A DNA stretch of 59,679 nucleotides, taken from positions 1 through 59,679 of the forward strand of contig JAFGSN010000108.1 in NCBI GenBank assembly GCA_016934575.1, in the 5' to 3' direction. Positions 6,596-38,960 of the stretch are shown piece by piece (position 1 is the stretch's first letter; every line of letters begins with the position of its first letter). The DNA is from Vicinamibacteria bacterium (GTDB lineage: Bacteria > Acidobacteriota > Vicinamibacteria > Fen-336). The notes below the pieces were generated by a model that was not told the DNA's origin, ran no database searches, and saw only the letters and a list, made by a program, of their open reading frames with translations. A program made the translations under genes and the position numbers.

Positions 6596-6635
6596 TGAAT
6601 CGCGAGCTTTCGTCTTCTCACATCCACGCCAAAAA

Positions 6636-6896: not shown

Positions 6897-7062
6897 GAGA
6901 CGCCCGATCGATCGATTTGGTCGGCCGCCGCCCGTTGGAGAGTGAGACGGATCACAAGCAGACGTCCCGAAGCTTTCCTTGCGTTGCAATCTTCCATTAG
7001 ACTAGTGCCGAACCTGAACTGCTTCTGAGTCGAAGCACTGGGGCTTCGACAGGGAGGATGTC

Positions 7063-7431: not shown

Positions 7432-7497
7432 GCGATCATTCGACGGGCCGTCCACGGCTCGACGCCCGTTCGATCTCGCGACACGCGAGTCCCGGTC

Positions 7498-8940
7498 ATG
7501 GACGTTCTATTGCTCGACCAAGATCCTGGACGCGCCAGCTTGATCGTCGGCGCGTTCGCGGAAAGCGGCGACAGCGTTCAAATCGACGACGGCCAGGATC
7601 ACGCCCGGTTGAAACGCCTGGTCGCGGAACGTCCGCCTGATCTGCTTGTCGTTTCATGGCCGCCGGGCGCCGGCGCCGGCGCGCTGATTGCGAGCTCGCC
7701 GAATTCCATCCCGATGCTCTTCCTGGCGGACCATGACGAGGAAGTCCCGCGCGCATCATTCGCGCAGGAGCAATTGTCGCTCTCCGGCGGCGACCTGCGA
7801 CGCCTGCCGCGCGCCGCCGAACGCGTGACGCGCGCCTGGCGTCTGATGGCAAAGCTGCGACAGGCCGCCGAAGCCTTGCACGAAAGCGAAGAACGCCTCC
7901 GCATGGTTGCCGACTTCACGAGCGACTGGGAATACTGGATAGGACCGGACGGCCGCTTCCTTTACGTATCGCCGGCTTGCGCGCGCATCACCGGTCACGC
8001 CGCCTCGGATCTCATGGCCGATCCCGGCCTGATGACGCGCATCATCCATCCCGACGATCGCCGCGCGTTCGTCGAGCACATGAGCCGCGTCATGAATGGA
8101 TCTCCCAAAAACTGTCGCATGGATCTCCGCATCGTTTGCCGCGACGGCGAGACGCGCTGGATCGCCCACTCCTGCCGGGCCGTCCATCATGATAGCGGGG
8201 CCTGGTGGGGCCGGCGCGGCAGCAATCACGACATCACGGAGCGCAAGCGCTCCGAGGCGGAGCTGGCCCGCCTGAGCGCGGAGTTGCGCGGCCTGGCGGC
8301 GCATCTGCAGACCGTTCGAGAAGATGAACGTCGCAGAATCGCCCAGGGCATCCATGACGAGCTGGGTCAGGCGCTCACCGCCCTGAAAATGGACGCCGCA
8401 TGGCTCGAGAGACGCCTGTCCGCCGGCGATCCGGCCCTGGCCGACAAGGCTCGCGACATGATCGACCTCATTGGACTGACGCTGCAGTCGGTGAAGCGTC
8501 TTTCCCTCGAGTTGCGGCCGCGCCTGCTCGACGATCTGGGGCTGCCCGCCGCGCTCGAATGGCAAACGGGCGAGTTCGCACGCCACACCGGCATTCAATG
8601 CGCGCTTCGCGTACGCCCCGACGATCTCGACCTTCCGCGAGAGCTTTCGACCGCGGTCTTTCGCATCGTGCAGGAAGCCCTCACGAACGTCGCCCGACAC
8701 GCTCACGCGACTCGCGTGGAGGTCGCGCTGGCGCTTGCCGGCGGCCGCCTCGGCCTGCTCATCGACGATGACGGCCGCGGCATCCGCGGCGAGGCGTTGC
8801 GCGATCCCGCGTCTTTCGGACTTATGCAGATGCGCGAGCGGGCGATCGCATGCGGCGGCGATCTCGCGATCGAGGGCCGCCCGGATCGCGGCACCTCGAT
8901 TCGCGTCAACGTGCCCTTCACGCCGGAGCGTCCCCGATGA
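7498..8940 (+). CDS. PAS domain sensor histidine kinase (NarL-type, HisKA_3) with a degenerate receiver-like N-terminus
   Basis: PAS region (EERLRMVADFTSDWEYWIGPDGRFLYVSPACARITGH), RIAQGIHDELGQALTALKMDAAWLER (HisKA_3 H-box), EALTNVARHAHATRVEV, IDDDGRGI, GLMQMRERA. Confidence 0.9.
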   Translation: MDVLLLDQDPGRASLIVGAFAESGDSVQIDDGQDHARLKRLVAERPPDLLVVSWPPGAGAGALIASSPNSIPMLFLADHDEEVPRASFAQEQLSLSGGDLRRLPRAAERVTRAWRLMAKLRQAAEALHESEERLRMVADFTSDWEYWIGPDGRFLYVSPACARITGHAASDLMADPGLMTRIIHPDDRRAFVEHMSRVMNGSPKNCRMDLRIVCRDGETRWIAHSCRAVHHDSGAWWGRRGSNHDITERKRSEAELARLSAELRGLAAHLQTVREDERRRIAQGIHDELGQALTALKMDAAWLERRLSAGDPALADKARDMIDLIGLTLQSVKRLSLELRPRLLDDLGLPAALEWQTGEFARHTGIQCALRVRPDDLDLPRELSTAVFRIVQEALTNVARHAHATRVEVALALAGGRLGLLIDDDGRGIRGEALRDPASFGLMQMRERAIACGGDLAIEGRPDRGTSIRVNVPFTPERPR

Positions 8941-20122: not shown

Positions 20123-20207
20123 GGAGGGCTAGCCTAACGGTAAGGCAGGAGCCTTGAAAGCTCCCGGGCGCAAGCCTTTGGGGGTTCGAATCCCTCGCCC
20201 TCCGCCA
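20123..20207 (+). tRNA. tRNA-Ser (anticodon TGA), CCA encoded
   Basis: Acceptor GGAGGGC/GCCCTCC, D-arm GCC-TAACGGTAA-GGC, anticodon stem-loop GGAGC-CTTGAAA-GCTCC, long variable arm, T-arm GGGGG-TTCGAAT-CCCTC, discriminator G plus CCA. Confidence 0.95.
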
Positions 20208-20211: not shown

Positions 20212-20883
20212 TCAGCGCACATCGACCTCGTCGCCCATGACCAGACGAGCCCCGGCGTTCACGGCGTCGTGGAGATCGGCGTCCAGTCCGGATTCCGGAA
20301 TCGGCGGCGCCGCATCGGAGAGCAGAAGGACGGGTTGATAAAGCCCCATGGCGTGAAGTCGTAGCGTCGCTTCGAGACGATCGCCGTCTCTCGCGCATGG
20401 GGGCTCGGTCGAGCATCGCAGCACGACTTCGGCGTCGTTCAGGTACACGCGCAACTCTGCATGCCGTGCGCCTCCCGTTCGCGCGGTCAATGTGAGAAAG
20501 TCGTCCGGATGAACCTCAGCGCCGCGACGCGTCTGGCCGTGCCCAGCCTGCGTTTCCACGGCGAGTGACGGCGGCGGCGGCTCTAATCTTGGAGCAAAAA
20601 ATATCGCCGCCGACACAAGCGCGACGGCGGCGGCCGCCAGCACAAACCGCGGCTGAGGCCACCACTCGCGCGCCTTCCGGCGCTCGAGGGCCGCGCGAAC
20701 CCGCGCCTCCCAGCCGGCGGGAGGCGCCTCGTCTCGGCCGAGCGCGCCAATGCGCGCCTGGAGTTTCTCGTACTCGATCCGCGCCGTCCGACAATCCGCA
20801 CAGATCTCAAAATGCTCGCCAAGTCGCCGGCCCTGTTCCAACAAGAGAAGGCCTTCTTGCTCGAAGCGTTCACATCGCGTCAT
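20212..20883 (-). CDS. zf-HC2-type transmembrane anti-sigma factor
   Basis: HFEICADC (HX3CX2C), single TM FVLAAAAVALVSAAIFFA, C-terminal extracytoplasmic domain. ATGA overlap with the upstream ECF sigma gene. Confidence 0.82.
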   Translation of the reverse strand: MTRCERFEQEGLLLLEQGRRLGEHFEICADCRTARIEYEKLQARIGALGRDEAPPAGWEARVRAALERRKAREWWPQPRFVLAAAAVALVSAAIFFAPRLEPPPPSLAVETQAGHGQTRRGAEVHPDDFLTLTARTGGARHAELRVYLNDAEVVLRCSTEPPCARDGDRLEATLRLHAMGLYQPVLLLSDAAPPIPESGLDADLHDAVNAGARLVMGDEVDVR

Positions 20884-21485
20884 GGCCGTACTCCGCCTTC
20901 TTCCAGGCACCGGCGCAGCACCGGGAGAGCCCGCGCGACACGCGCCTGAAGAGTCGCGGGACGATGGCCGCAGACCGTGGCCATCTCTGGATAGGAAAAG
21001 CCTTCGATGTACCTCAACAGGACGGCCGTCCTGACCTGCGGATCGAGTCTCTGGACGCAATTTGCGAGCCGCCGGTTGATCTGCGCCGCGACGGCATCGT
21101 CCTCGGCGCTCATATCGTCATGCGGTTTTTCGACGACCGCATCGAGCGGCGCGAAACGCGCCGCCCACCGCTTGCGCTTCTTCAACGCGTCCAGGCACCG
21201 GTGCGCCGCGATGCCGAAGAGCCACGACCGAATCGACGACCTGTGCTCGAAACGAGTGAAATCCCGAAAAGCTTCAAGAAACGTGATCTGCAGAACGTCT
21301 TCGGCGAGCGCAGCGTCCCGTAACATCTGCCGGCAATAACGATAGAGCGATTGTCCGTAACTCCGCATGAGCACGTCCAGGGCCTCTTCCCGACGGCCCT
21401 GATCGAGCGCGGTCAGGGCCGCCTGCTCTATGATCTCGCGTGTTTCAAGTCCGGCGACGGCGTTGATGACTTCTTCCTTTCCCAT
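20880..21485 (-). CDS. RNA polymerase ECF-type sigma factor
   Basis: YRYCRQMLRDAALAEDVLQITFLEAFRDFTRFEHRSSIRSWLFGIAAHRCLDALKKRKR (sigma2) and LDPQVRTAVLLRYIEGFSYPEMATVCGHRPATLQARVARALPVLRR (sigma4). Start MGKEEVINAVAG chosen over the ORF-track start. Confidence 0.9.
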   Translation of the reverse strand: MGKEEVINAVAGLETREIIEQAALTALDQGRREEALDVLMRSYGQSLYRYCRQMLRDAALAEDVLQITFLEAFRDFTRFEHRSSIRSWLFGIAAHRCLDALKKRKRWAARFAPLDAVVEKPHDDMSAEDDAVAAQINRRLANCVQRLDPQVRTAVLLRYIEGFSYPEMATVCGHRPATLQARVARALPVLRRCLEEGGVRP

Positions 21486-21690
21486 GGACGGCGCTTCCGG
21501 ACTCCGTGACGTCGCCGTTCGGCGGCAACAGGACTCCGTCAAGAGCTGACGCAATCCCATAATGGCGTAACGCATTGAAGCAGACAACACGCGCTTTTCG
21601 GTCTCGGCGCATCCTGCCAGGATGCATCGAGGGAGCCGCCCGTTCTTGCGTCGGAAACAAAGGCAACGCCACGGAGTCGCTCCATTTTCG

Positions 21691-22092
21691 TCAGGGCAGT
21701 CTGCCGCCTGACGGCCTCAGGTCAAAAGCACAGCCGGGACAACTGACGATCGGGCATGCCGCGGAGGGTTGGCAACGGGTGGAAGTCACCAGACGCAATT
21801 CCACGAGATCGTATGTGGGGGACTCGGCGCCGCCGCCGGACAACGGAATCTCGATCGATCTGATCCCAGGCGAAAGCATCACTCCGCTGATCTTGCTCCC
21901 GGACTTGGCTAAGACAATATAGGTCCCGTTGCTCTTCAATCCGTTGATATGAAGAGCTTTATTCTCGACCCTCAGCATCGAGGACGATACGGGTGCGTTC
22001 GCTGTCGTCTTTGATGGCTTCGCGAAGCCAACGCCGACGATCGCCGGCAGCGTCAGTGAAACGGCATAAACGATGTATCGTTTTCCATTCAT
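21691..22092 (-). CDS. Small exported hypothetical protein encoded with the CHAT protein
   Basis: Signal-like N-terminus MNGKRYIVYAVSLTLPAIVGVGFAK. ATGA overlap with the CHAT gene stop. Cys-rich C-terminus CQPSAACPIVSCPGC. Confidence 0.6.
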   Translation of the reverse strand: MNGKRYIVYAVSLTLPAIVGVGFAKPSKTTANAPVSSSMLRVENKALHINGLKSNGTYIVLAKSGSKISGVMLSPGIRSIEIPLSGGGAESPTYDLVELRLVTSTRCQPSAACPIVSCPGCAFDLRPSGGRLP

Positions 22093-24536
22093 CTTGCTTC
22101 TCCTTGCTTATCGAAACGGATTGAGGACATGCTCACTGCCCTGGATCCCATCATTACGAACGCGCTCCAGAAGGACGGCGGCTCGCCGGTTTCGATGAAT
22201 CCGCGTTGGCTCCGAGCCAGGGCGCGCGCCGGATCACGCGCTCCGCCCTTCTTGTAGAAATCGATCAAGAAACGACGACTCGAGCTGTCCGGAAACGACC
22301 AGAGCGAAGCGACGACGGCGCGGCTCCCGGCCGCAAGAAAGGCCGCCGCCATGGGACTGGCGATCCCTCGCGCGGAACGCGTCGCGGACGCGCAGCTTGC
22401 GAGAACCACCAGCCGAGAAGCCACGCCGCTTCTAATGATCTCATCAGCCGCGATGGGACGATCCGAAAGACGTATTTGAGGGCCCCGCGGTCCGATCTCG
22501 CCGTGGGTCGCCAGATGCAGGACCGACGAGTCCCGCCCCTTGTCGATCAACATCGCGGCCGTTGCGTCGGATCCGACATGAGCGGTGACGTCGAGCAGCC
22601 GGGCGACGTCGCGAGCCTCCCGGGCCGCGGCTGGCAGATTCCCGAGAGGGTCTCCCAGAACGACGGGAGGCCGACGGAATACGCGCGGATCTCCCTCGAT
22701 AGCGTTGAATGCATTGAGGCTCGGTGAATGTATGATCGCATGGCGCTCCACCAGATATCCGTTCTTCAGGCGAAGGGCGGCGAATGGAACGCGGTCGAGG
22801 AGCGTATCGGTAATGACGAGGAGGTCCTGTGCCGTTCCTGGCAATACGTCTTCCGGCAAGAGTATCATTCCCAACTTCGCCGCAAGCGACTGGTCGTCGG
22901 GAGACGCGACAAATCGCTCGACCAGAACGCGAATCTCATCGGCAGGCAGGCTCAAACGCCGCGCATCCAAGTGCGCGGCGCTCACGCGCATCAACCAAAG
23001 CCATTCCCCGGCCTTAAAGTACGCCAACGCGTGATGCTTGCCGATGCTCTGCGCCATTTGTTCCGAAGTCATGAGCACGCCGGCGAACGACTCGCTCAGA
23101 GCCGGTATCAAGCCTTGCAGCGTGTCGATCCTGTCGGCGGCGCTCTCGATCATCAGATCTATTGGCGATTCATCGCTCTTCGTTCCCATGCCACGCGTCG
23201 CGATCGCGTCGACGAACACGCGCGCCCTGACCCTTTCGGCCGTCTCGAGCGCCTTCCATAGGTCATGCTTCCGGCGAACCTGTTGGAGGAAAAGCGCTTC
23301 AAAGGGACCCCGCTTCCGTTCGAGATGCCACGATTTGAACTCGCCGAAGCCCAAGTTGGAGCGCATCCGCTCCAGAATGCGGCAGGATCGCTCGAACGCC
23401 TGCTCAGCCGCGGAATCGTTCCCGCGCCCTTCCTCCAGAAGACCGGATTGGTACTCAAGATCCCAGGCCCATTCATCGGGCGGATCGGATCGCAGCCCAT
23501 CGCGAATGGCCATTGCAGCGGCGGCTCCGTCCCCTCGCGCACGCTCGACGATCGCGCGAAAGTAGTGAAGCGCGACACGATTGCGGCCATATGGATCCGC
23601 GTGGCGCTCGGCGGCCTCGAGGTGGGTCAACGCCGCGGCCGTACGCTCCAATTGCACGTTGACATCGACCAGGTTGAGGTGGATTATCCGCAGAATCTCT
23701 GATTCGCCCGCTCTCTCCGCTTCAGTCAACGCCTGCTCGAACGAGTACCGCGCCAGCTCGGCGCGGCCTTCGTTGAGATATATCAGACCCGTGTTGGCGA
23801 GATACTTCGCCCGCCCCGACGTCGTCTGCAACGTTGCAGAATCCTTCATGATCGCCAGTGCTCGTCGCGCGCCTTCAAGATCGCCCACATCGATGAGAAG
23901 CGCAAAAAGTCCCTCGGAACCCAGCGCACTCAGCTCGATATCTCCCGTCTCAGCCGCGATATCGAGCGTTCGAGCCACGTAAATCAGCGCATCGCGATAA
24001 CGTGACTTCTCCCACGAGAGATGGAATAGACGGTAGAGGTTCAGCGCGGCCTCTTTCTCCCGGCCTTTCGCCTGATACTGCTCGACGGCTCGAAGATATG
24101 CCCGCCGAGCCGGATCGGTTCTATCGCGCCGCCGGCGGCTGATGGCCGCAAGCTCCCATGCGCGCGCCTCCTCGGACGAGCCGCGGAGTCGCGCCAACCA
24201 TTCCTCGACCTGCGCGTGATGATTCAGCTCCAGATGCGCCTCGGCCGCCAGGGCGCCGACCTCCGAATCTCTTTCGGCCTCGAATGCCCGCGTACAAGCC
24301 TGAATGGCGGCCTGATGATTCTCTTCCTCGATCATCCGCCGGCAGCGTTTCTCCTGACTCTCGTGGCAAGCGGTCGTCATCAGGAAAAGCATGAGCGCCA
24401 CCAGACGGTTGAAGCGCGCCTTGCCGCGCAACCGTTCAATCCACCGCCATAAACTGAGGCGACGAGAGGCGACCAAACACAACGCGATGCCTGGTTTTTC
24501 CGTCGGCGGCTGTCCAGCTTTTCGAGCCACGATCAT
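22089..24536 (-). CDS. CHAT domain-containing protein with TPR repeats
   Basis: C-terminal HLATHGEIGPRGPQIRLSDRPIAADEIIRSGVASRLVVLASCASATRSARGIASPMAAAFLAAGSRAVVASLWSFPD matches CHAT peptidases (His in HLATHGE, Cys in LASC). TPR-like helices N-terminal. Confidence 0.9.
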   Translation of the reverse strand: MIVARKAGQPPTEKPGIALCLVASRRLSLWRWIERLRGKARFNRLVALMLFLMTTACHESQEKRCRRMIEEENHQAAIQACTRAFEAERDSEVGALAAEAHLELNHHAQVEEWLARLRGSSEEARAWELAAISRRRRDRTDPARRAYLRAVEQYQAKGREKEAALNLYRLFHLSWEKSRYRDALIYVARTLDIAAETGDIELSALGSEGLFALLIDVGDLEGARRALAIMKDSATLQTTSGRAKYLANTGLIYLNEGRAELARYSFEQALTEAERAGESEILRIIHLNLVDVNVQLERTAAALTHLEAAERHADPYGRNRVALHYFRAIVERARGDGAAAAMAIRDGLRSDPPDEWAWDLEYQSGLLEEGRGNDSAAEQAFERSCRILERMRSNLGFGEFKSWHLERKRGPFEALFLQQVRRKHDLWKALETAERVRARVFVDAIATRGMGTKSDESPIDLMIESAADRIDTLQGLIPALSESFAGVLMTSEQMAQSIGKHHALAYFKAGEWLWLMRVSAAHLDARRLSLPADEIRVLVERFVASPDDQSLAAKLGMILLPEDVLPGTAQDLLVITDTLLDRVPFAALRLKNGYLVERHAIIHSPSLNAFNAIEGDPRVFRRPPVVLGDPLGNLPAAAREARDVARLLDVTAHVGSDATAAMLIDKGRDSSVLHLATHGEIGPRGPQIRLSDRPIAADEIIRSGVASRLVVLASCASATRSARGIASPMAAAFLAAGSRAVVASLWSFPDSSSRRFLIDFYKKGGARDPARALARSQRGFIETGEPPSFWSAFVMMGSRAVSMSSIRFDKQGEAR

Positions 24537-24735: not shown

Positions 24736-26586
24736 CTACTGTTGAGATCTCCGAACTTGCGACAGATCGCGCACCGCGCCCTTGTCGGCGCTGGTGGCGG
24801 TCAAGGCATAGGCCTGAAGCGCCTGCGATACGACGCGCTTACGTCCGACGGGAGTCCAGGCGTCGGCGCCGCGCGCGTCCATCTTCTTGCGCCGTTCTTC
24901 AAGAACCGCGTCGGGAACATCGACGTTGATCGTGCGTGCCTCGATGTCGATGCGGATGACGTCGCCCTCCTCGATAAGACCGACGTTGCCGCCGCAAGCC
25001 GCCTCCGGGCTGATGTGACCGACCGACAGACCCGCGGTCCCGCCGGAGAAGCGGCCGTCGGTGATCAGGGCGCACTCGCGTCCCAGGCCCTTGGACTTGA
25101 TGAACGTCGTGGGGTAGAGCATCTCCTGCATGCCTGGTCCGCCCTTGGGTCCTTCATAAACGATGACAACGCAGTCTCCTACCTTGATCCGATTCCCGAG
25201 AATGGCCTCGACGGCCGTCTCCTGAGAGTGAAAAATGCGCGCCGTACCGCTGAATGTCCGACACTCCTCGGGCACGCCGGCGGCCTTGACGATGCAGCCG
25301 TCGGGAGCGACGTTGCCGCGCAGGGTGCACAAACCGCCGTCTCGCGAGTAAGCGTGCTCCGCGTCGCGGATGCAGCCGCGCGCGCGATCAAGATCCGGCG
25401 CCGAATGGTATTTTTCCTGGACGAAGCCTTCAATCGAGCGCGCGCCTCCCGGTGCCGCCAGTGTGCGCCGGCGCGCCGCGTCCGTGCAGCTCGATCGGCG
25501 GGGATCATTACGGTCGATCAGCTCGCCGATCGTCGCGCCGGAAACCGTCCGGCAGTCGCGGTGGATCAGCCCCTCGCGCTCCAGCTCGCCCATGATGGCG
25601 AGGATGCCGCCAGCGCGGTGCACGTCCTCGACGTGATAGTCGGAGCTGGGCGCGACCTTGCAGAGTGTCGGCGTCTCGCGTGAGAGACGATCGATGTCGC
25701 TCATGGTGAACGCGACGCCGGCCTCGCGCGCCACGGCCAGAACGTGGAGCACGGTGTTCGTCGACCCGCCCATGGCGATGTCGAGCCGCATGGCGTTCTC
25801 GAAGGCCTCGAACGTCGCGATCGAGCGCGGCAGAACCGAAGTGTCTCCGTTGACGTAATGACGCCGCGTCATTTCGACGATGCGCCGCCCGGCCTCCTCG
25901 AGCAACGCCTTTCGGAGGACATGCGTCGCTACGAGCGTGCCGTTGCCTGGAAACGCCATACCGATGGCCTCATTCAGGCAATTCATCGAGTTGGCGGTGA
26001 ACATCCCCGAGCAAGAGCCGCATGTCGGACAAGCCCGCAGCTCGTACTCGCGCACTTCATCCTCGCTCATGGCGTCGTTTCCGCCGGCGAAGATGGCGTC
26101 GATCAGATCAAGCCCCTTTCCATCGGGAAACCGGCCGGCCTCCATCGGCCCTCCGGAGACAATGATCGCCGGAATGTTGAGACGCATCGCGGCCATCATC
26201 ATGCCTGGAGTAATCTTGTCGCAGTTGGTGATGCAGACGAGAGCGTCGGCCACGTGGGCCTCGACCATGAACTCGACCGAGTCGGCGATAAGGTCGCGCG
26301 AGGGCAGCGAATAGAGCATTCCTTCGTGCCCCATGGCAATGCCGTCGTCGATGGCGATGGTGTTGAACTCGACGCCGAATCCGCCCGCCGCGTCGACGAC
26401 TTGCTTGACCATCTGGCCGACGTCCTTGAGATGAACGTGGCCTGGGACGAACTGCGTGAACGAGTTGGCGATGGCGATGACCGGCTTCTGGAAATCATCG
26501 TCCTTCATTCCGTTCGCGCGCCACAGCGACCGCGCGCCGGCCATGCCGCGGCCTTCCATCGAGATACGGCTTCGGTAGGGCTTCAT
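24736..26586 (-). CDS. ilvD: Dihydroxy-acid dehydratase
   Basis: 616 aa. [108 protein letters not shown]-like [10 protein letters not shown]. Confidence 0.97.
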
Positions 26587-27312
26587 CGTCGATCCTCCGT
26601 TTGACTCCCCCGGCTTGCGCCTGGGCCGAAGACGTCACCCTAGGAGGACGAGGGCGCGCTGTCAAGTCGAACGCTGGAAGCGCCGCCACATGACACCCGT
26701 GAAACGGATCGTATTCCGAGCCGCGATTTACCAACGATATGAATTGACCGGTCCCATGGGGACCGTCTAACATTGGAGGCGGTTGGTAAAAAAGTTAACA
26801 CCGCACGCTATCTCGATGCTGGGACGGCCGGACGCGCCAACGCAGGCTTTAGCGGATCAGATTGCGAGCGATCGGCAGAGTTGCTCGGACCTCATATGAT
26901 TCGAATCGTCGGCGATCGATCTCGATCGCCGGTTTGTCGCATCCGCTTGGGGCGATACAGGCTGGAGATCAAGCAGGACAAAACGCCCGGCATCTTTGAC
27001 GAATTGGGCTGCCGGGCGAAAAGCCTTCCCGCACAGGTCGCCCGAAACGCGTCGGCGCATGGGTCGGAGGAAGACCCTCCGTTTGTTGAAATGCGCGCAT
27101 CGTGCGACAATCACGCGTCTTAACCGCGAGCGCATCGACGTCAGCGCTCGATAGATTTTTGACGTCCAACGATCCGCCGAGTTCAACTTCGAGCTGAAGA
27201 GTCGGTCTTGGCGTGTCGAACGACGCCGACTTCACGCACGCGACATCCTGATGGACGATTCGCCACAATCCGATCCGAACGAACGCATCTCCAGCCTGCG
27301 ACGGTGCGCCTG

Positions 27313-29286
27313 ATGACGCAAACATTGATTGCGCTGGCGGCGTTGCTCGTCTCGGCGTCCGCGGCGCTCGGACTCCGCTCGCGCGCGCGCGCCGCAAGCC
27401 GGCTCGGCGCCGCCGGTTCTCCGGCTGCACTCGCCATATGCGTCGTTGCGTTGATCCGGGTCCTGTCGAGCGGACACGCGGTTGCTCTACGCGTCTCGTG
27501 GGCGGAGCCGTTCGGCGAGCTCACTTTGGGGATCGACGCTCTTTCGTCCTTCTTCCTGCTGATCATTCTGTCGCTGTCGGTTGTCACCGCGCTCTATGGC
27601 GTCGGATACCTCGAACGCTCTTCCCAATCCAGCGTGTCCTGGTTCTTCTTCAATCTGCTCGTCGCCAGCATGATCGTCGTCGTCATCGCGCGGCACGTGC
27701 TCGTGTTCCTGCTCGCCTGGGAGACGATGGCGCTTACGTCGTTTTTCCTCGTGGCGCACCATCACGGGCAACGTTCGGTGCGACGAGCGTCGTGGATTTA
27801 TCTCATCGCGAGCCATCTGGGATCGTTCTTCCTGTTGCCGATGTTCTTTCTGCTCGCGCCTGCCGGCGGATCACTGGCGTTCTCGGATTTGGGCCATGCG
27901 CTCGCTCCCTGGGCCGCCTCGTCCTGCTTTGTTCTGGCGGTGATCGGCTTCGGCTGCAAGGCCGGTTTGATGCCGCTGCACGTGTGGCTGCCCGAGGCGC
28001 ATCCCGCGGCGCCAAGTCACGTCTCGGCGCTCATGTCGGGCGTCATGATCAAGATGGGCGTCTACGGCCTGCTGCGCGTCGCCATGCTTCTGGGCGAACC
28101 GCCGCTCTGGTGGGGGTGGCTGCTGCTTGCGCTCGGCGCGATCTCGGCGTTGCTCGGCGTTCTCTTCGCGCTTGCTCAGCACGACTTGAAACGGCTTCTG
28201 GCCTATCACAGCGTGGAAAACGTCGGCATCATCGTCCTGGGAATCGGTGTCGGCTTCACCGGCCTATCCAGCGGCGCGCCGCATGTCGCCGTATTGGGAT
28301 TCACGGGCGCTCTTCTGCATGTCTTGAATCACGCCGTTTTCAAAGGACTGCTGTTCCTGGGCGCCGGCTCCGTGCTTCGCGCGACACATACCGCCGAGAT
28401 CGACGAGCTGGGCGGACTCATGCGACGCATGCCGGTGACCGGGTCCACTTTCCTGGTCGGCTGTTTGTCGATCTGCGGCCTACCGCCGTTCAACGGATTC
28501 GTGAGCGAGTTCCTGATTTACTGGGCCATGATCGCCGGCGTTTTGTCGCTCACGGCCGCGACCGCCGTTCCGCTTGGCGCCACGGTCGCGGTCCTCGCTT
28601 CGGTCGGAGGGCTGGCGCTCGCTTGCTTTGCCAAGGCCTTCGGCATCGTCTTCCTCGGGCTGCCGCGCAGGACCACGCCGCAAAGCGTCGTTGAAAACGG
28701 GCCGTCGATGACGGCGCCCATGGTCCTGCTCGCCGCCGCTTGCCTCGCCTTGGGTCTATCCGGTCCCCTGCTCGCGCCGGCCGTGGCAACCGTCGTCGCC
28801 GACCTGCATGCGCCGATCGACGCCGCTTCCATCCATGCGACAACCCGCGTTCTAAGCCGCGTCACCCTCATCGCCGCGGCGTTTATGGCTCTCGTCGCGG
28901 CGATGGCTCTTGTCCGTCACCGGCTCTTATGCCGGCGCGAGTCGCGCGCTGCGCCCACTTGGGATTGCGGTTATGTGGCGCCCTCGGCGACGATGCAGTA
29001 TACGGCCTCGTCCTTCGCGCAACCCATCGTCGACCTCTACGGCTCCTTGCTCAGAACACGCAAGCGTCTCGATGCGCCCGAGATCCACTTTCCCGAAGCG
29101 GCGCATCTCGAGACCGAGACTCCGGATCTCAGCCGCGAAGGCATATACGAGCCGCTGTTCGAAGCGATTGGCGTCGCGCTGCGACGCATGCTGGTGCTCC
29201 AGCACGGTCAGTTGCACATCTACGTCCTGGCCGTCGTTTTGACGCTGATCGCGTTGCTGCTCTGGCAGGTGGGGTGGAACTCGTGA
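27313..29286 (+). CDS. Hydrogenase-4 subunit B-like (HyfB/NuoL-family) proton-translocating membrane subunit
   Basis: Polytopic Mrp antiporter-type: GFGCKAGLMPLHVWLPEAHPAAPSHVSALMSGVMIKMGVYGLLR, LAYHSVENVGIIVLGIG, HVLNHAVFKGLLFLGAGSVL. C-terminal CGYV-type HyfB tail. Confidence 0.93.
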   Translation: MTQTLIALAALLVSASAALGLRSRARAASRLGAAGSPAALAICVVALIRVLSSGHAVALRVSWAEPFGELTLGIDALSSFFLLIILSLSVVTALYGVGYLERSSQSSVSWFFFNLLVASMIVVVIARHVLVFLLAWETMALTSFFLVAHHHGQRSVRRASWIYLIASHLGSFFLLPMFFLLAPAGGSLAFSDLGHALAPWAASSCFVLAVIGFGCKAGLMPLHVWLPEAHPAAPSHVSALMSGVMIKMGVYGLLRVAMLLGEPPLWWGWLLLALGAISALLGVLFALAQHDLKRLLAYHSVENVGIIVLGIGVGFTGLSSGAPHVAVLGFTGALLHVLNHAVFKGLLFLGAGSVLRATHTAEIDELGGLMRRMPVTGSTFLVGCLSICGLPPFNGFVSEFLIYWAMIAGVLSLTAATAVPLGATVAVLASVGGLALACFAKAFGIVFLGLPRRTTPQSVVENGPSMTAPMVLLAAACLALGLSGPLLAPAVATVVADLHAPIDAASIHATTRVLSRVTLIAAAFMALVAAMALVRHRLLCRRESRAAPTWDCGYVAPSATMQYTASSFAQPIVDLYGSLLRTRKRLDAPEIHFPEAAHLETETPDLSREGIYEPLFEAIGVALRRMLVLQHGQLHIYVLAVVLTLIALLLWQVGWNS

Positions 29287-30179
29287 CCACGGCCCTGCTC
29301 GACTTTTTAACGGCCCTGGCGCTCGCGCCCCTGCTGCCGGGCGTGATCGCTCGCGTCAAGGCGCTTTTCGCGGGCCGCCAGGGACCGCCGCTACTCCAGG
29401 CTTACTTCGATCTGTGCAAACTGCTCCGTAAAAGCGGCGTTTATAGCACGGCGACCACGTGGATTTTTCGCGCCGGACCGATCGTCGCGTGCGCTTCCGT
29501 CGTCGCCGCTCTGGCGCTGACTCCGGCAGCGGGGAGAACGGCGCTGATCTCGTTTCCCGCAGATTTCGTGCTCCTCGCGTATCTTCTGGCGTGCGGCCGA
29601 TTCTTCACCGTGCTCGCGGCGCTCGACACCGGATCAAGCTTCGAAGGCATGGGCGCCAGCCGCGAGGTCCACTATGCCGCGCTGGGAGAGCCGGCTTTGC
29701 TGCTCGGCCTGCTGGCGCTCGCGCGACAGACCGGCACGATGTCGCTCCCGTCGCTGCTTGGCCGGGCGAGCCCGCTGGCGCCCGAGGCGGCCCTCGTCGG
29801 CGCCGCGCTCTTCATCGTTCTTTTGTGCGAGAACGCGCGCATTCCGTTCGACGATCCGAACACGCACCTCGAGCTGACCATGATTCACGAGGCCATGGTT
29901 CTCGATCATGGCGGGGTCGATCTGGCGCTGATCCACTATGGCTCTTGGCTGAAGCTCTGGCTCTGGAGCGCTTTGCTCGCCGGCGTCCTCATGCCGGTCG
30001 CTCTCAAGACAATCGTGACGCCGGTTCCGCTCGTGGGCGTGACGGGCGTTCTGGCGGTCGCCCTGGGAATCGGAGTCGTGGAGTCTTGTATCGCGCGCTT
30101 GCGCCTGCTGCGCGTTCCACATCTTCTCGCCACGGCGCTGGCGCTTGCGGCCGTCGCCTTCATTCTGGGAGTACGTTGA
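29283..30179 (+). CDS. Hydrogenase-4 subunit C-like (HyfC/NuoH-like) membrane subunit
   Basis: GTGA overlap with the upstream gene. LLPGVIARVKALFAGRQGPPLLQAYFDLCKLLRK, SFEGMGASREVHYAALGEPALLL, ENARIPFDDPNTHLELTMIHEAMVLDHGG. Confidence 0.92.
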   Translation: MTTALLDFLTALALAPLLPGVIARVKALFAGRQGPPLLQAYFDLCKLLRKSGVYSTATTWIFRAGPIVACASVVAALALTPAAGRTALISFPADFVLLAYLLACGRFFTVLAALDTGSSFEGMGASREVHYAALGEPALLLGLLALARQTGTMSLPSLLGRASPLAPEAALVGAALFIVLLCENARIPFDDPNTHLELTMIHEAMVLDHGGVDLALIHYGSWLKLWLWSALLAGVLMPVALKTIVTPVPLVGVTGVLAVALGIGVVESCIARLRLLRVPHLLATALALAAVAFILGVR

Positions 30180-30181
30180 CG

Positions 30182-30823
30182 ATGATGGACGGAGTCGTCG
30201 ATCGGCTGATGGTGTTACTGATCCTTTCGGACGTCGCGCTGCTCGGCATGTCGCGTTTGGGCGCGGTCATCGGCCTGGCCGCGCTGCAAGGCGCGCTCCT
30301 CGGCGGCTTGGCGCTGTCCGCGTCCGGGGAGACGTCGCGCGCCGTCCTCCTGGCGGCGGTGGGATTGAGCGTCCGCGGCCTGCTCTTCCCCTGGCTCTTG
30401 CGACGCACGGCAAGACGCGCCGGAGTTCAACGCGATCTCGAACCTTTTGTGGGCTATGCCCTGTCGCTGCTGATCGGAATCGTCATGCTCGGCGCGTCGA
30501 TGGCGCTCGGCGCGCGCCTGCCGCTCGGGCGGGCGGGAGTTTCGAATCTGGTCGTGCCGGCCGCGCTCTTCACCATGTTCACCGGCGTGTTCTTGATCGT
30601 CGCTCGGCGCAAGGCCTTGACGCAATGCGTGGGGTACCTCGTGCTCGAAAACGGCATCTACGGCTTCGGCGCGGCCTCGGTCGGCGAAATTCCTCTGCTG
30701 GTCGAGCTGGGCGCGCTGCTCGACCTTTTCGTGGCCGTGCTCGTGATGGGCGTCGCCGTCTATCGCATCACCGCGGAGTTCGACCATATGGACACCCAGC
30801 GGCTCGATGCGCTGAGAGGATGA
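30182..30823 (+). CDS. Hydrogenase-4 subunit E-like (HyfE/NuoK-like) membrane subunit
   Basis: Hydrophobic 213 aa. TQCVGYLVLENGIYGFGAASVGEIPLLVELGALLDLFVAVLVMGVAVYRI is typical of HyfE. Confidence 0.85.
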   Translation: MMDGVVDRLMVLLILSDVALLGMSRLGAVIGLAALQGALLGGLALSASGETSRAVLLAAVGLSVRGLLFPWLLRRTARRAGVQRDLEPFVGYALSLLIGIVMLGASMALGARLPLGRAGVSNLVVPAALFTMFTGVFLIVARRKALTQCVGYLVLENGIYGFGAASVGEIPLLVELGALLDLFVAVLVMGVAVYRITAEFDHMDTQRLDALRG

Positions 30824-30829
30824 GACGTT

Positions 30830-32335
30830 GTGATGCATGATTCGACGCTTGTCTTCGCGGCGCTCATCCTTCCCGCTCTCGGAGCGGCGGCGGTTCCGCT
30901 CCTGCGCCGGGCGCGCGGCGTACTGGCCGTGACTTGCCTCGTGACGCTCGTCGACGTCTTGCTGGCCGCCGTCGTCTCCGTTTCCGTGCTGCGAAAGGGT
31001 CCGGTCGCAGCCGCGGCAGGATGGCTGCGCGTCGACGCCCTTTCGGCGACTCACCTCCTTCTCCTGTCGCTCGTCGGCGGCCTGAGCAGCCTGTTCGCCT
31101 TCGTCTACTTCGACGACGAGCTCCAGCAAGGCCGGTTGACGCTCAGACAGTCGCGCCTGTTCGGCTCCCTTTGGTGCGGCGCGTTCTTCGCGATCACGCT
31201 GCTGCTCGCGTCCAACAACCTCGGCGTGATGTGGGTCGGCATGGAGGCCACGACGCTGTTCACGGCGTTTCTGATCTCCGTGCATATCTCGCGCGAGTCG
31301 CTGGAGGCGATGTGGAAGTACGTGCTGATCTGTTCGGTGGCGATCGCGTTCGCCTTCATGGGCACGCTCATCACGGCCGCCGCCGCGCCGCGCACCGGAG
31401 CGCCCTCCGCGCTCTTCTGGACGAGCCTTCTGGCCGACGCCGCCCGCCTCGACCCGCGCCTCATGCGCGCGGCGTTCGTGTTCCTGCTCGTCGGCTACGG
31501 AACCAAGGCCGGGCTGGCGCCCATGCACAACTGGCTGCCTGACGCGCACAGCCAGGCGCCGGCGCCGGTATCGGCGCTTTTTTCGGGATTCATGCTCAAC
31601 AGCGCGCTGTACTGCATCCTGCGCTATCTCCCCGTCGTCGAGAGCGCGACGGGCGGCGAGGGCGGGGAACGGGGACTGTTGCTAGCTCTCGGTCTCGTGT
31701 CGCTTTTGATCGGCGCGGGCTTTATTCTGTTTCAACATGACGCCAAGAGACTGCTCGCTTATTGCAGCGTCGAGCACATCGGTCTGATCTGCGTAGGCGT
31801 CGGCCTCGGCGGAGCCGGCACGGTCGCGGCTCTTGTCCACGCCCTCAATCACTCGTTGGCGAAGAGCCTGGCCTTTTTCAGCGCCGGGCGGTTGGGACAG
31901 GCGTTCGGCGGCCATGACATTGCGCGCATGAGCGGCGCTTTCCGGGCCTCGCACGCCTGGGGCGCCGGCCTGCTGTTCAGCCTCATCGCGCTTTCCGGAG
32001 CAGCGCCGTTCGCCGCCTTTTTGAGCGAGCTGATGATCCTCAAGGCCGCGTTCGACGCGCGCCGCGGCGTTCTTTTCGCCACGTTGCTCTTCGGTCTTGG
32101 ACTGGCTTTCTTGGGGCTGCTGCGCCATGCCATCAGAATCGCCTGGGCGCGTTCGGACGCCACGCCGCGCCGGCTTCCGGATCGAGCGATCGAGCGGTTG
32201 ATCGTTGGGGCGACGTTGTGCCTGCTTCTGGTTCTCGGACTGGGCTGGCCCGAGAACCTGGCGCGGGCCGCCGTAAGCGCCGCGCGCATCATCGACGGCG
32301 GTTCGGCGGCGGCACTGGCGGGAATCTTGCCATGA
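30830..32335 (+). CDS. Hydrogenase-4 subunit F-like (HyfF/NuoN-like) proton-translocating membrane subunit
   Basis: GYGTKAGLAPMHNWLPDAHSQAPAPVSALFSGFMLNSALYCILR, LLAYCSVEHIGLICVGVG, ALNHSLAKSLAFFSAG. Confidence 0.92.
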   Translation: MMHDSTLVFAALILPALGAAAVPLLRRARGVLAVTCLVTLVDVLLAAVVSVSVLRKGPVAAAAGWLRVDALSATHLLLLSLVGGLSSLFAFVYFDDELQQGRLTLRQSRLFGSLWCGAFFAITLLLASNNLGVMWVGMEATTLFTAFLISVHISRESLEAMWKYVLICSVAIAFAFMGTLITAAAAPRTGAPSALFWTSLLADAARLDPRLMRAAFVFLLVGYGTKAGLAPMHNWLPDAHSQAPAPVSALFSGFMLNSALYCILRYLPVVESATGGEGGERGLLLALGLVSLLIGAGFILFQHDAKRLLAYCSVEHIGLICVGVGLGGAGTVAALVHALNHSLAKSLAFFSAGRLGQAFGGHDIARMSGAFRASHAWGAGLLFSLIALSGAAPFAAFLSELMILKAAFDARRGVLFATLLFGLGLAFLGLLRHAIRIAWARSDATPRRLPDRAIERLIVGATLCLLLVLGLGWPENLARAAVSAARIIDGGSAAALAGILP

Positions 32336-33858
32336 CAAGCGCCGCTATCGCCGTCCGTAACGGCCAGTCGATTGCCGTCGAGGATCTGCCGAAGCTTGCG
32401 ATCAAGCCGTTTCAAGCCGAGGTCGTCTCCGCTCTCTCCGGCGGCGCGCGCGTCGCGGCGTTTTTCGGCGCGCCCGAAGCGGACCTGACCGGCCGGTCGA
32501 GCGCGAAGCTTCGTCTGATCATGGCGCTGGCGCAGGACCGAGAACGATCGCTCATGCTGCTCTCGACCTCGGTAGGCGACGCCTATCCTTCATTGACTCC
32601 GGCTTTCCCGCAGCTCCATCGCTTCGAACGCGAGATCCTCGAGCAGTGGGGCGTGACTCCCGAAGGTCATCCCTGGGCCAAGCCGGTGCGATTTCAGACG
32701 CCGTATCGCGCGCCGGCCGGCCACGCGGTCGAACCCGCGACGATCGGAGTCGTCGACTTCTTTCGCGTCGGCGGCGGCGAAACCCACGAAGTGGCGGTCG
32801 GACCGGTGCACGCCGGCATCATCGAGCCGGGCCATTTCCGCTTCCAGTGCCACGGCGAACACGTTTATCACCTCGAGATCTCTCTCGGATATCAGCACCG
32901 CGGCGTGGAACGCGGCCTCATCGGCGCGCCTCACGCGCGCTCGCTGCATTACGCCGAAACGCTCGCGGGCGACACGACCATCGGACACGCGACCGCGTAT
33001 GCGCAGGCAATCGAGTCGCTGGCCGCGGTCAAGGCGCCCGAGCAGGCCAAGGCCTTGCGCGCAGTCGCGCTCGAACTCGAGCGCCTCGCCAACCATGTCG
33101 GCGATCTGGGCGCGCTGGCGGGCGACGTGGGTTTTCTGCCGACGCTTTCCTATTGCGGGCGTATTCGCGGCGACGCCCTCAACCTCACCGCGCTTCTCTG
33201 CGGAAGCCGATTCGGACGCGGCCTCGTCGTCCCCGGAGGCGTCCGGTTCCCCTGCGACGAGAGCCGCGGCGCCGAAATCCGCCGTCGTCTGGCGCGCATC
33301 ACGGACGACGCGCGCAACGCCGTCGATCTGATCTGGACGACCCCATCGGTGACGGAGCGTTTCCAGGGCGTGGGGATTCTGCCCCGCGATCTGTGCCTCG
33401 CCATGGGCACGGTGGGCATGGCCGCGCGCGCCGCCGGATTGCCGCGCGACGTGCGCCATGACTTTCCGGCCGGCGACTCGGCGCTCCGTGAGATACCGAT
33501 CGCCACGGCGGATGACGGAGACGTGCTCGCCCGCGCCCTTGTGCGCCGGCGCGAGATCGAGGCTTCGATCAAGTTCGTCGACAATCGACTGGCGAATCTA
33601 CCGGCCGATCCGCACCGCCGCCCGCTCTCGTCTTTACGAAGCCGACGCCTGGTGGTGGCGCTTGCGGAAGGCTGGCGAGGCGAGATCTGTCACGTCGCCT
33701 TGACGGACGATCAGGGCCGCGTCGCTCGCTACAAGGTCGTCGATCCCTCTTTCCATAACTGGTCGGGCCTGGCTCTTGCCTTGCGCGACCAACAGATCTC
33801 CGACTTCCCTTTGTGCAATAAGAGTTTCAACCTCTCATACTGCGGACAGGATCTCTGA
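32332..33858 (+). CDS. Hydrogenase-4 large subunit-like (HyfG/NuoCD-fusion) protein lacking [NiFe] cysteine ligands
   Basis: ATGA overlap with the upstream gene. N-terminal NuoC-like FHRFEREILEQWGVTPEGHPWAKPVR. NuoD-like EISLGYQHRGVERGL...LELERLANHVGDLGALAGD. No N-terminal CxxC; C-terminus DFPLCNKSFNLSYCGQDL. Confidence 0.92.
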   Translation: MTSAAIAVRNGQSIAVEDLPKLAIKPFQAEVVSALSGGARVAAFFGAPEADLTGRSSAKLRLIMALAQDRERSLMLLSTSVGDAYPSLTPAFPQLHRFEREILEQWGVTPEGHPWAKPVRFQTPYRAPAGHAVEPATIGVVDFFRVGGGETHEVAVGPVHAGIIEPGHFRFQCHGEHVYHLEISLGYQHRGVERGLIGAPHARSLHYAETLAGDTTIGHATAYAQAIESLAAVKAPEQAKALRAVALELERLANHVGDLGALAGDVGFLPTLSYCGRIRGDALNLTALLCGSRFGRGLVVPGGVRFPCDESRGAEIRRRLARITDDARNAVDLIWTTPSVTERFQGVGILPRDLCLAMGTVGMAARAAGLPRDVRHDFPAGDSALREIPIATADDGDVLARALVRRREIEASIKFVDNRLANLPADPHRRPLSSLRSRRLVVALAEGWRGEICHVALTDDQGRVARYKVVDPSFHNWSGLALALRDQQISDFPLCNKSFNLSYCGQDL

Positions 33859-33862
33859 AGCC

Positions 33863-34648
33863 ATGTCGATCGCCAACATTCTCGCGGCGCGTATCAAGCA
33901 GGGGCATCGCACGCTGCCGTTTCCACCGGACCAGTCCGTCATCTCCGATCGTTATCGCGGATTGCCGCGGCTCTCTCCCGATCGCTGCGTCGCCGGCTGC
34001 CGCGCGTGCGCCGAGGCATGCCCGACCGGAGCGATCCGTGTCGGGGACGCGCCGGCGATCGACATGGGCCTCTGCCTTTTCTGCGGCGAGTGCGCCGCGG
34101 CCTGCGAACGTCAAGCGATCGTGTTCTCGCAAGACTACCGAATGGCGGCGTGCTCGCGTTCCGACCTCGTCGTCGATCGCGAAGACCGGCGAGCGGCGAC
34201 GTCCTCCGCGCCCGTCAAATGGCGTCTCTTCCGTCGCTCGCTCAAGCTGCGCCAGGTCAGCGCCGGCGGATGCAACGCGTGCGAGGCCGACATCAATGTC
34301 CTTGGAACGTTAGCCTGGGACCTCGGCCGATTCGGCGTCCAGTTCGTCGCCTCGCCGCGCCACGCGGACGGTCTGCTGGTGACCGGACCGGTCAGCCGCA
34401 ACATGGAACTGGCGTTGCGCAAAACCTACGACGCCGTGCCTGAGCCGCGCATCGTCATCGCCGTGGGCGCTTGCGCCATTTCGGGAGGACCCTACATGGG
34501 ACATGAAGAGGCGCGCGGCGGCGTCGGAGCCGTCCTCCCGGTCGACCTCCACATACCCGGCTGTCCTCCGCATCCGCTCACGATTCTTGACGGTTTGTTG
34601 CGCGTGATGGGGAAAAGCGATCCGCAAACCGCCTCGCCTTTTCGGTAA
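33863..34648 (+). CDS. Fused 2x[4Fe-4S] ferredoxin (NuoI/HyfH-like) and small subunit (NuoB/HyfI-like)
   Basis: CVAGCRACAEACP and CLFCGECAAACE, then QVSAGGCNACEADINVLGT...VGACAISGG...HIPGCPPHPLTILDGLL (proximal cluster ligands). Confidence 0.9.
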   Translation: MSIANILAARIKQGHRTLPFPPDQSVISDRYRGLPRLSPDRCVAGCRACAEACPTGAIRVGDAPAIDMGLCLFCGECAAACERQAIVFSQDYRMAACSRSDLVVDREDRRAATSSAPVKWRLFRRSLKLRQVSAGGCNACEADINVLGTLAWDLGRFGVQFVASPRHADGLLVTGPVSRNMELALRKTYDAVPEPRIVIAVGACAISGGPYMGHEEARGGVGAVLPVDLHIPGCPPHPLTILDGLLRVMGKSDPQTASPFR

Positions 34649-34684
34649 CGCGCTCATTCTTCGACCTCATTCCATGTCCTCCAA

Positions 34685-34714
34685 TTGACACTCTTTCAAA
34701 GGGAACGTTATATT
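34685..34714 (+). promoter_or_regulatory. Predicted sigma70-type promoter upstream of nuoA
   Basis: TTGACA (34685-34690), 18-nt spacer, TATATT (34709-34714), in the gap between the hydrogenase-4-like cluster and nuoA. Confidence 0.55.
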
Positions 34715-34764
34715 TCCCCGGCATTGCGCCGGATGTCGTCAAGTCGTGACGAATGAGGAGGATC

Positions 34765-35133
34765 ATGACCGCCAGCTCGCCGCTTCCCTCCTATGTCCCG
34801 ATCCTCGTGCTCGGCGCGATCGCCGCCGGCTTCGCGATCCTCACGATTCTGTTCTCGCATCTGATCGGCCGCCCGCGATCCACGCCCGCGAAGAGCGCGA
34901 CGTACGAGTGCGGCATGCCGCCAGTCGGCACGGCGCACGCGCGATTTCCAGTCAAGTTTTACCTGGTGTGCGTGATCTTCATCCTCTTCGACGTGGACGC
35001 GGCCTTCCTCTATCCGTGGGCGCTCGTGTTCCGCGAGCTCGGAATATTCGGCCTGATTGAGATGGCGCTCTTCGTCTGCATCCTCGGCGGCGGCTTTGCC
35101 TATGCCTGGAAGACGGGAGCGCTCGATTGGTGA
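34765..35133 (+). CDS. nuoA: NADH-quinone oxidoreductase subunit A
   Basis: YECGMPPVGTAHARFPVKFYLVCVIFILFDVDAAFLYPWALVFRELG. Start ATG 34765 is preceded by GAGGAGG; the ORF-track start 34753 overlaps that RBS. Confidence 0.95.
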   Translation: MTASSPLPSYVPILVLGAIAAGFAILTILFSHLIGRPRSTPAKSATYECGMPPVGTAHARFPVKFYLVCVIFILFDVDAAFLYPWALVFRELGIFGLIEMALFVCILGGGFAYAWKTGALDW

Positions 35134-36950
35134 CGAAGACCGTGGAATATAAACCCGAGAACCTGGCGCTCTTCGAGCGCATACGTGCTCGTTACCCCGA
35201 GAAGCGCTCGGCGCTCCTGCCCGCGCTCCATCTGCTGCAGGATCAAGAAGGTCATATCAGTCGCGAAGGCGTCGAGTACGTCGCCGCGCTTGTCGGCGTC
35301 ACTCCGGCGCAGGCGCACGACGCGGCCAGCTTCTACACCATGTTTCGGTTCACGCCGTCGGGACGGCGGCGGATCGAGATCTGTACGAATCTGTCCTGCG
35401 CGCTGCGCGGCGCGGACGATCTATACGCGGGCGTCTGCAACAAGCTCGGCCTCGAAGGAGACGGAATCTCGTCCGCGGGCGATCACGCCGTGTCGAGCGC
35501 CGAATGCCTTGCGGCCTGCGGCGGCGCGCCGGCGCTTCAAGTGAACGGCGCATGGGTCGAAAACGTTCAGAAAGGCGAGATCGAGGACGTGCTGGCTGGA
35601 CGCCTCTCGCGCCGCCCACTCAAGTGGCCGCGCAGCCCCGGCGAGCCGATCCTGTTACGCAACGTCTTCAAGAAGGATTCGACCTCGCTGGCGACGTACC
35701 GCGCCGGCGGAGGCTATGCGCGGCTGCGCGATCACCTGACGACGCCGCCCGGGGAGATCGTCGAAGCGGTCAAGCTCTCGAACCTGCGCGGACGCGGCGG
35801 AGCCGGCTTCCCCACTGGCGTCAAGTGGGGTTTCCTTCCCGCCGGAGATCCGAGGCCGAGGTATCTGTGCGTCAACGCCGACGAGGGCGAGCCCGGCACG
35901 TTCAAGGATCGCCTGCTGATCGAGCGCGATCCACATCAGCTCATCGAGGGGATCGTCGCCTCGTCCCACGCGATTCGCGCTCGTGCGTGCTACGTCTATC
36001 TGCGCGGCGAGTTCCATGAAGCCTGCCATGTCCTGGAGAACGCTCTCGATGAAGCGCGCGGCGCGAATCTCGTCGGTCCCAACGTGCTCGGCACCGGCGT
36101 CGATGTCGAGATCCATCTGCACCGCGGCGCCGGCTCGTACGAGTGCGGCGAGGAGACGGCGCTCATCGAGAGTCTCGAGGGCAAGCGCGGCCAGCCGCGG
36201 CTCAAGCCGCCGTTCCCGGCCGCCAAAGGGCTCTATGACTGCCCGACGATCGTCAACAACGTCGAGACGATCTGCTGTGTTCCGCTGATCCTCGATCGCG
36301 GCGCCGGCTGGTTCGCCTCCTACGGCACGGAGCGCAACGCCGGTCCCAAGCTGTATTGCGTGAGCGGTCACGTGAACCGTCCCGGAGTCTATGAGGCGCC
36401 CATGGGAAGCATCACTTTGCGAGACCTCGTCTTTGGCGAGGGATACGGAGGCGGAATCCCCGGCGGGCGGCGATTGCGCGCCGTGATCCCCGGCGGTTCC
36501 TCGACGCCCATGCTCACGGCGGGAGAGATCGACGTGGCGATGGATTTCGAGAGCCTGAGCCGCGCCGGTTCAGCGCTCGGCTCGGCCGGCGCCATCGTCA
36601 TCGACGACTCGACGTGCATGGTCTGGGTCGCGCAAAGACTGACGCGTTTCTACAGGCGGGAATCGTGCGGCAAGTGCACCCCCTGTCGCGAGGGAACGGC
36701 CTGGATGCTGCGTTTGCTCGATCGCATCGAATCAGGCAAGGGCGCGCCAAGCGATCTCGATACGCTCTCGGAGCTCTGCGAAACGATCTCCGGCAGCGCC
36801 TTGTGCCCGTTCGGCGACGCCGCCGTCATTCCCGTCGCTTCGACGCTCGCCAGGTTCCGCGCCGAATACGAATACCACGTACGCGAGAAGCGCTGCTGGA
36901 AAGAGGTCGCGAACACGTACGAGGACGCGGCCGGAGGCGCGGGTCGATGA
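35130..36950 (+). CDS. nuoEF: NADH-quinone oxidoreductase subunits E and F fused
   Basis: NuoE part CTNLSC...AECLAAC (2Fe-2S). NuoF part NLRGRGGAGFPTGVKWGF, CVNADEGEPGTFKDR, YECGEETALIESLEG, ESCGKCTPCREG, LCPFGDAA. GTGA overlap with nuoA. Confidence 0.95.
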   Translation: MTKTVEYKPENLALFERIRARYPEKRSALLPALHLLQDQEGHISREGVEYVAALVGVTPAQAHDAASFYTMFRFTPSGRRRIEICTNLSCALRGADDLYAGVCNKLGLEGDGISSAGDHAVSSAECLAACGGAPALQVNGAWVENVQKGEIEDVLAGRLSRRPLKWPRSPGEPILLRNVFKKDSTSLATYRAGGGYARLRDHLTTPPGEIVEAVKLSNLRGRGGAGFPTGVKWGFLPAGDPRPRYLCVNADEGEPGTFKDRLLIERDPHQLIEGIVASSHAIRARACYVYLRGEFHEACHVLENALDEARGANLVGPNVLGTGVDVEIHLHRGAGSYECGEETALIESLEGKRGQPRLKPPFPAAKGLYDCPTIVNNVETICCVPLILDRGAGWFASYGTERNAGPKLYCVSGHVNRPGVYEAPMGSITLRDLVFGEGYGGGIPGGRRLRAVIPGGSSTPMLTAGEIDVAMDFESLSRAGSALGSAGAIVIDDSTCMVWVAQRLTRFYRRESCGKCTPCREGTAWMLRLLDRIESGKGAPSDLDTLSELCETISGSALCPFGDAAVIPVASTLARFRAEYEYHVREKRCWKEVANTYEDAAGGAGR

Positions 36951-38014: not shown

Positions 38015-38076
38015 AGCGATGAAGACGTTTCTTAAGTTCGAGTGGCGGCGATCACGTGGAGAGGGTATAAAAGGAT

Positions 38077-38161: not shown

Positions 38162-38162
38162 G

Positions 38163-38959: not shown

Positions 38960-38960
38960 C

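Follow-up and report, generated by a model that had tools for sequence, protein, structure and literature searches.

Can a CHAT protease placed outside the cytoplasmic membrane control a sigma factor through its membrane anti-sigma factor? The question is raised by a locus of a Vicinamibacteria bacterium (assembly GCA_016934575.1, contig JAFGSN010000108.1, positions 1 to 59,679; this whole stretch of 59,679 nucleotides is referred to here as the window). Four genes on its minus strand encode a TPR-CHAT protein, a small exported protein, an extracytoplasmic function (ECF) sigma factor and a membrane anti-sigma factor. Analysis of their sequences suggests a trans-envelope module, in which the exported TPR-CHAT lipoprotein would cleave the anti-sigma ectodomain and free the sigma factor. 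We give this reading a probability of roughly 45%. We consider a functional link between the CHAT protein and the sigma switch highly probable; it stands on much firmer ground than the cleavage step.

The four-gene unit and its conservation

The order of the genes and their two ATGA overlaps, reported in an initial annotation of the window, agree with the coordinates of the open reading frames (ORFs):

22089-24536, minus strand: predicted TPR-CHAT lipoprotein, 815 amino acids (aa) counted from the ATG; CHAT domain PF12770, E=9e-38
21691-22092, minus strand: small exported protein, 133 aa, with a signal peptide and a Cys-containing C-terminus
20880-21485, minus strand: ECF sigma factor, 201 aa from the ATG at 21485, ORF open to 21590; Sigma70_r2 and Sigma70_r4_2
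20212-20883, minus strand: membrane anti-sigma factor, 223 aa

The CHAT and small genes overlap at 22089-22092, and the sigma and anti-sigma genes at 20880-20883. About 200 bp separate the two pairs.

In the 193 genomes searched in the window's class, matches were limited to the CHAT domain, and a GTDB contig scan with the single CHAT sequence returned no close homolog. Two full-length CHAT orthologs (36-37% identity) were found in the phylum sample. They are located in G534 (JAHZIX010000029.1, a metagenome-assembled genome) and G247 (CP011806.1, Acidobacteria bacterium Mor1). Four more, in G601, G604, G557 and G558, came from a profile search within the class to which G534 belongs. Full-length orthologs are thus present in six other Acidobacteriota genomes, which belong to other families, and are 35-39% identical. 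The phylum and class searches scored the best few candidates per genome, so these counts are lower bounds.

Conservation of the gene order had been set beforehand as a test, and it holds. The CHAT protein, the small exported protein, the ECF sigma factor and a one-pass anti-sigma factor are all present in the seven genomes, and six loci (the window, L194, L204, L205, L206 and L207) keep the order and strand. The 4-bp overlap between the sigma and anti-sigma genes (NTGA) is found in all seven. Leave-one-out profiles recovered the window anti-sigma factor with E=4e-70 and the sigma factor with E=4e-72. Pairwise distances of the four proteins correlate at 0.84-0.93, values that are due in part to the close pair L206/L207. 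Because the four genes recur in seven genomes, they are one real conserved unit, beyond chance. A second, divergent ECF and CHAT system lies beside the orthologous unit in L206 (3936-8164). In L195, a subtilase-like gene, possibly a regulon member, is located at 5068-7950 between two divergent gene pairs.

The small protein has no match in Pfam or NCBIfam. Its counterpart adjoins the CHAT gene in all seven loci, either overlapping it or at most about 60 bp away. Apart from one close pair, the small proteins share only 14-32% identity, and they are too divergent for one-to-one matching. A profile built from the other six ranks that of the window first among its 320 ORFs (E=0.002; next 0.61). 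The small protein diverges fastest of the four, yet in step with CHAT (r=0.93). Homologs of it or of the anti-sigma ectodomain were not found among the CHAT loci of the class; they surfaced only with true orthologs. One match, in G070, was discarded since it is antisense to an 865-aa gene. The Cys residues at the C-terminus of the small protein point to a disulfide-bonded fold. Its most likely role is to regulate either CHAT or the anti-sigma ectodomain, as an inhibitor, a co-factor or a ligand.

Export, membrane topology and catalytic residues

Several elements of the CHAT and anti-sigma proteins bear on where they act:

24366-24389, minus strand: CHAT lipobox region LFLMTTAC with Cys57 (codon 24366-24368), Cys in 7 of 7 orthologs
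22503-22505, minus strand: CHAT His678, presumed catalytic dyad (motif HLATHGE), invariant in orthologs
22392-22394, minus strand: CHAT Cys715, presumed catalytic dyad (motif LASC), invariant in orthologs
20791-20814, minus strand: anti-sigma zinc-binding motif HX3CX2C (HFEICADC, aa 24-31); His24, Cys28 and Cys31 invariant
20593-20646, minus strand: single transmembrane (TM) segment of the anti-sigma factor, about aa 80-97
20215-20592, minus strand: beta-rich anti-sigma ectodomain, 126 aa; predicted local distance difference test (pLDDT) score mostly 74-92 in the AlphaFold2 (AF2) model

In the CHAT protein, PF12770 spans aa 553-798 and the TPR region about aa 61-421, with TPR helices that are confident in the AF2 model. 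A TPR superhelix followed by a CHAT domain with a His/Cys dyad is the architecture of TPR-CHAT peptidases. The N-terminus had been described as an imperfect lipoprotein signal, and comparison with the orthologs indicates that the signal is genuine. The lipobox is imperfect in the window (LMTTAC) and in L195, and canonical in the other five orthologs (LSAC, LSGC, LAAC, LLGC and VLGC). Translation probably begins at an in-frame TTG (24431), from which the lipoprotein signal would have textbook length. The His and Cys that had been pointed out as kept for catalysis, His678 and Cys715, are invariant in the alignment of the seven orthologs together with Cys57, Cys65 and Cys81. Cys715 is in the same column as the Cys of Csx29 and of DdvA, and both dyad residues are kept in 132 of 135 aligned CHAT ORFs of the phylum. 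Given the invariant lipobox Cys and the invariant dyad, CHAT is very probably exported and retains its catalytic residues. Its predicted localisation is therefore that of an exported lipoprotein, not a cytoplasmic protein, and this would place it in the same compartment as the anti-sigma ectodomain and the small protein.

The anti-sigma protein had been assigned to zf-HC2. Its HX3CX2C motif, one TM segment and 126-aa ectodomain support the functional part of this assignment. The family label is not borne out by Pfam, whose zf-HC2 model gives no score on the window protein, and the NCBIfam ‘antisigma’ match (E=9e-6) is below the cut-off. The motif and the TM segment, together with the overlap of the two genes and regions 2 and 4 of the sigma factor, match an ECF sigma factor with a class I (zinc-finger) membrane anti-sigma factor. 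Relatives of the protein in the window's class are encoded directly downstream of an ECF gene. In the ectodomain, Cys157, Cys163 and the juxtamembrane Arg120 are invariant among orthologs, and Arg120 is located in a lower-confidence AF2 loop fairly near the TM segment. An oxidising compartment would suit the Cys pairs that are not part of the active site. A fold search with the anti-sigma protein returned generic Ig-like matches only, with low template modelling scores, and these were left uninterpreted.

CHAT in anti-sigma control and the competing readings

To place the unit among related loci, we took CHAT neighbourhoods from the window's own class, which hold 128 CHAT ORFs. An ECF gene is located within 3 kb of 74 of them. 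The density of ECF genes 0-2 kb upstream on the CHAT strand is 0.186 per kb, versus 0.012 beyond 3 kb (about 16-fold). Three layouts recur. In ECF-CHAT loci, the ECF gene immediately precedes a CHAT gene without a signal peptide. In ECF-anti-sigma-CHAT loci, a zinc-finger TM anti-sigma factor is found with an exported CHAT. Four-gene sets have an extra protein between the anti-sigma factor and the exported CHAT (e.g. L157 and L120). An export signal is found in 22 of 27 CHATs beside a zinc-finger membrane anti-sigma factor versus 0 of 13 directly behind an ECF gene, a comparison whose lower cut-off, and whose restriction of the second group to directly adjacent ECF genes, were chosen after seeing the data. 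With the stricter hydrophobicity cut-off applied at first, the figures were 13 of 27 versus 4 of 33 (P=0.003). In the remaining 5 of 27, the signal lies deeper inside an over-extended ORF. The CHAT protein is also found fused to the anti-sigma factor, in two loci from different families:

L058, 2333-5749: zf-HC2-TM-TPR-CHAT fusion, sigma gene directly upstream; zf-HC2 slightly below the Pfam cut-off
L154, 6956-10348: zf-HC2-TM-TPR-CHAT fusion, sigma gene directly upstream

That CHAT can take part in anti-sigma control is evident from these fusions and from the solved DdvA.

Individual loci of the class differ in their additional genes. An ECF gene directly upstream of a signal-less TPR-CHAT gene, overlapping it or nearly so and with no anti-sigma gene, makes a cytoplasmic sigma-CHAT dyad in L045, L047, L048, L050, L052, L053, L056, L059 and L104. 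In L086, L129, L135, L151 and L157, the ECF and zinc-finger anti-sigma genes are followed by a gene for an uncharacterised protein of about 250 aa, unrelated to the third gene of the window unit, and a TPR-CHAT lipoprotein gene. L120, L125, L127 and L139 encode an ECF factor, a TM protein without the zinc-finger motif, a small exported protein of about 150 aa and an exported CHAT. This small protein is analogous to that of the window, with no detectable sequence relation.

The shared compartment, the conserved dyad, the fusions and the precedents make a role for CHAT resembling that of a site-1 protease our best guess. The conservation of the unit, its export signals, dyad and membrane topology, and the fusions can be read from the sequences, whereas the protease activity, its substrate and cleavage site, the role of the small protein and the signal are inferred. 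The anti-sigma factor, spanning the membrane once with its beta-sandwich ectodomain outside, would hold the ECF sigma factor in the cytoplasm via its HX3CX2C domain. The TPR superhelix of the CHAT lipoprotein may sense stress, a ligand or the small exported protein. The CHAT domain would then cut the ectodomain of the anti-sigma factor, possibly within the loop that holds the invariant Arg120. Resident proteases would complete the degradation, and the released sigma factor would transcribe its regulon. An M50 site-2 protease is encoded; such enzymes are near-universal. A broader form of the proposal is offered only tentatively. In this form, the small protein would gate a CHAT lipoprotein dedicated to periplasmic site-1 cleavage of the ECF anti-sigma factor, exported TPR-CHATs of Acidobacteriota would in general serve as the outer arm of sigma/anti-sigma switches, and DdvA-like fusions would represent the one-piece form.

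Other arrangements would account for part of these observations. The sigma factor, under its own sensor anti-sigma factor, might induce the CHAT protease and its small partner, which would then act on envelope or foreign proteins. Neighbouring genes often belong to ECF regulons, and the divergent pairs of L195, with the subtilase-like gene between them, look like a regulon neighbourhood. However, the two fusions and DdvA put CHAT physically on the anti-sigma factor, and CHAT export follows the presence of a membrane anti-sigma factor, so we regard this arrangement as rather unlikely. Slightly less probable still is a non-proteolytic sensor, whose TPR-CHAT protein binds the ectodomain and exerts conformational control like a detached DdvA ectodomain. 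The profile match to the DdvA CHAT domain and the rank of DdvA among the best fold matches of a low-confidence model are in line with it, whereas retention of both His and Cys in the orthologs and in nearly all CHAT ORFs of the phylum argues for catalysis.

The small protein could instead be the CHAT substrate, its cut form acting as a cytokine-like ligand of the anti-sigma ectodomain that frees the sigma factor. Its gene is invariably the immediate neighbour of CHAT, its rapid divergence keeps step with that of CHAT, and Csx30 sets the precedent of a CHAT protein with a substrate of its own. The small proteins have no conserved cleavage motif, however, and their low identities and the likely disulfide-bonded fold make this version improbable. 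Chance adjacency of two unrelated gene pairs, for which the gap between the pairs in the window and the rarity of the unit could be cited, is refuted by the six further genomes of other families that keep the four genes adjoining or near, and is barely credible.

Cleavage of the anti-sigma factor by the CHAT lipoprotein has several points against it. A conserved dyad alone is no proof of it, and sequence cannot demonstrate proteolysis. The CHAT part of the AF2 model is poor (pLDDT mostly <60) and gives no reliable active-site geometry. The unit is rare. Within the window's class at least 1 genome of 193 has it, and in two other classes at least 1 of 41 and at least 5 of 149. In L195, the CHAT-small and sigma-anti-sigma genes are divergent pairs, and in several other loci a gap of as much as a few hundred bases lies between the pairs, which may form two transcripts. 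A search of the regions upstream of the CHAT and sigma genes revealed no ECF promoter motif common to both, only isolated matches at about chance level.

The GC content of the locus equals that of its surroundings and gives no sign of recent import. Features in its vicinity are:

20123-20207, plus strand: tRNA-Ser
24736-26586: ilvD-like dehydratase ORF, identity judged from its own sequence
27208-43899: two successive complex I-type gene sets, in the order antiporter-like and 49-kDa subunits, then NuoE/F, NuoL, NuoM and NuoN-like

One of the two sets is perhaps a membrane hydrogenase-like module adjoining complex I.

Comparison with known systems

Anti-sigma factors with one TM segment and an ectodomain, controlled from outside the membrane, are known from RseA/DegS/RseP-type systems. 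The window anti-sigma factor has the same design. The site-1 protease differs: in those systems it is a PDZ serine protease or signal peptidase, and here CHAT is the candidate. Separase (peptidase C50) also combines helical repeats with a caspase-like domain, but it is eukaryotic and cytosolic and its role is unrelated. A CHAT profile that includes the window protein matches DdvA (8rot, E=7e-23), Csx29 (E=3e-11) and, weakly, separase (E=4e-7), in this order.

The type III-E CRISPR protease had been proposed as precedent. The route from CHAT to a sigma factor is confirmed there, since Csx29 cleaves Csx30, otherwise the inhibitor of CASP-sigma (PMC10028731); the closer precedent, DdvA, had been missed. 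Craspase (Csx29, Csx30 and CASP-sigma) likewise couples a TPR-CHAT protein to an ECF-like sigma factor. However, Csx29 is cytoplasmic and triggered by guide-RNA binding to target RNA, and its substrate is the inhibitor, whereas the window CHAT, with its signal and invariant lipobox Cys, is predicted to be exported. No cas gene was found among the scanned neighbours of the locus; CRISPR arrays were not searched for. In the literature on CHAT with sigma or anti-sigma factors, Craspase was the sole functional link found; subscription papers were outside the scope of this search, so an earlier report is possible.

In Myxococcus xanthus, the ECF factor DdvS has DdvA as its anti-sigma factor; as of 2015, the signal that induces DdvA was not known (PMC4374960). 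The PDB entries 8rot and 8rw5 label DdvA a transmembrane anti-sigma factor and CHAT domain-containing protein. Both were among the best fold matches over most of the CHAT protein. As the CHAT part of the model is unreliable, this served only as a lead, which the sequence profile then confirmed. The CHAT domain of the window protein and that of DdvA are homologous and share the His and Cys, and a cognate ECF gene is encoded next to the anti-sigma gene in the window, as expected of the DdvA type. The L058 and L154 fusions resemble DdvA in carrying the sigma-binding domain, TM segment and CHAT in one polypeptide. In the window and its orthologs, CHAT and the anti-sigma factor are separate ORFs; the window has a predicted CHAT lipoprotein, an anti-sigma factor with its own ectodomain and an additional small exported protein.

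The association of CHAT with anti-sigma control is thus not wholly new, being known from DdvA and from Csx29-Csx30-CASP-sigma. What is new is the split form, with a free lipoprotein CHAT, a dedicated small exported protein and a separate anti-sigma factor. TPR-CHAT proteins are abundant in large-genome bacteria, and we found few assigned roles outside CRISPR. If the proposed tie between exported CHAT and membrane anti-sigma factors, whether free, paired or fused, is correct, many of these proteins would belong to envelope signalling. The tie would add a second route from CHAT to a sigma factor besides Craspase, and provide a set of partners in which to seek the kind of signal and cleavage that DdvA has not yet revealed.

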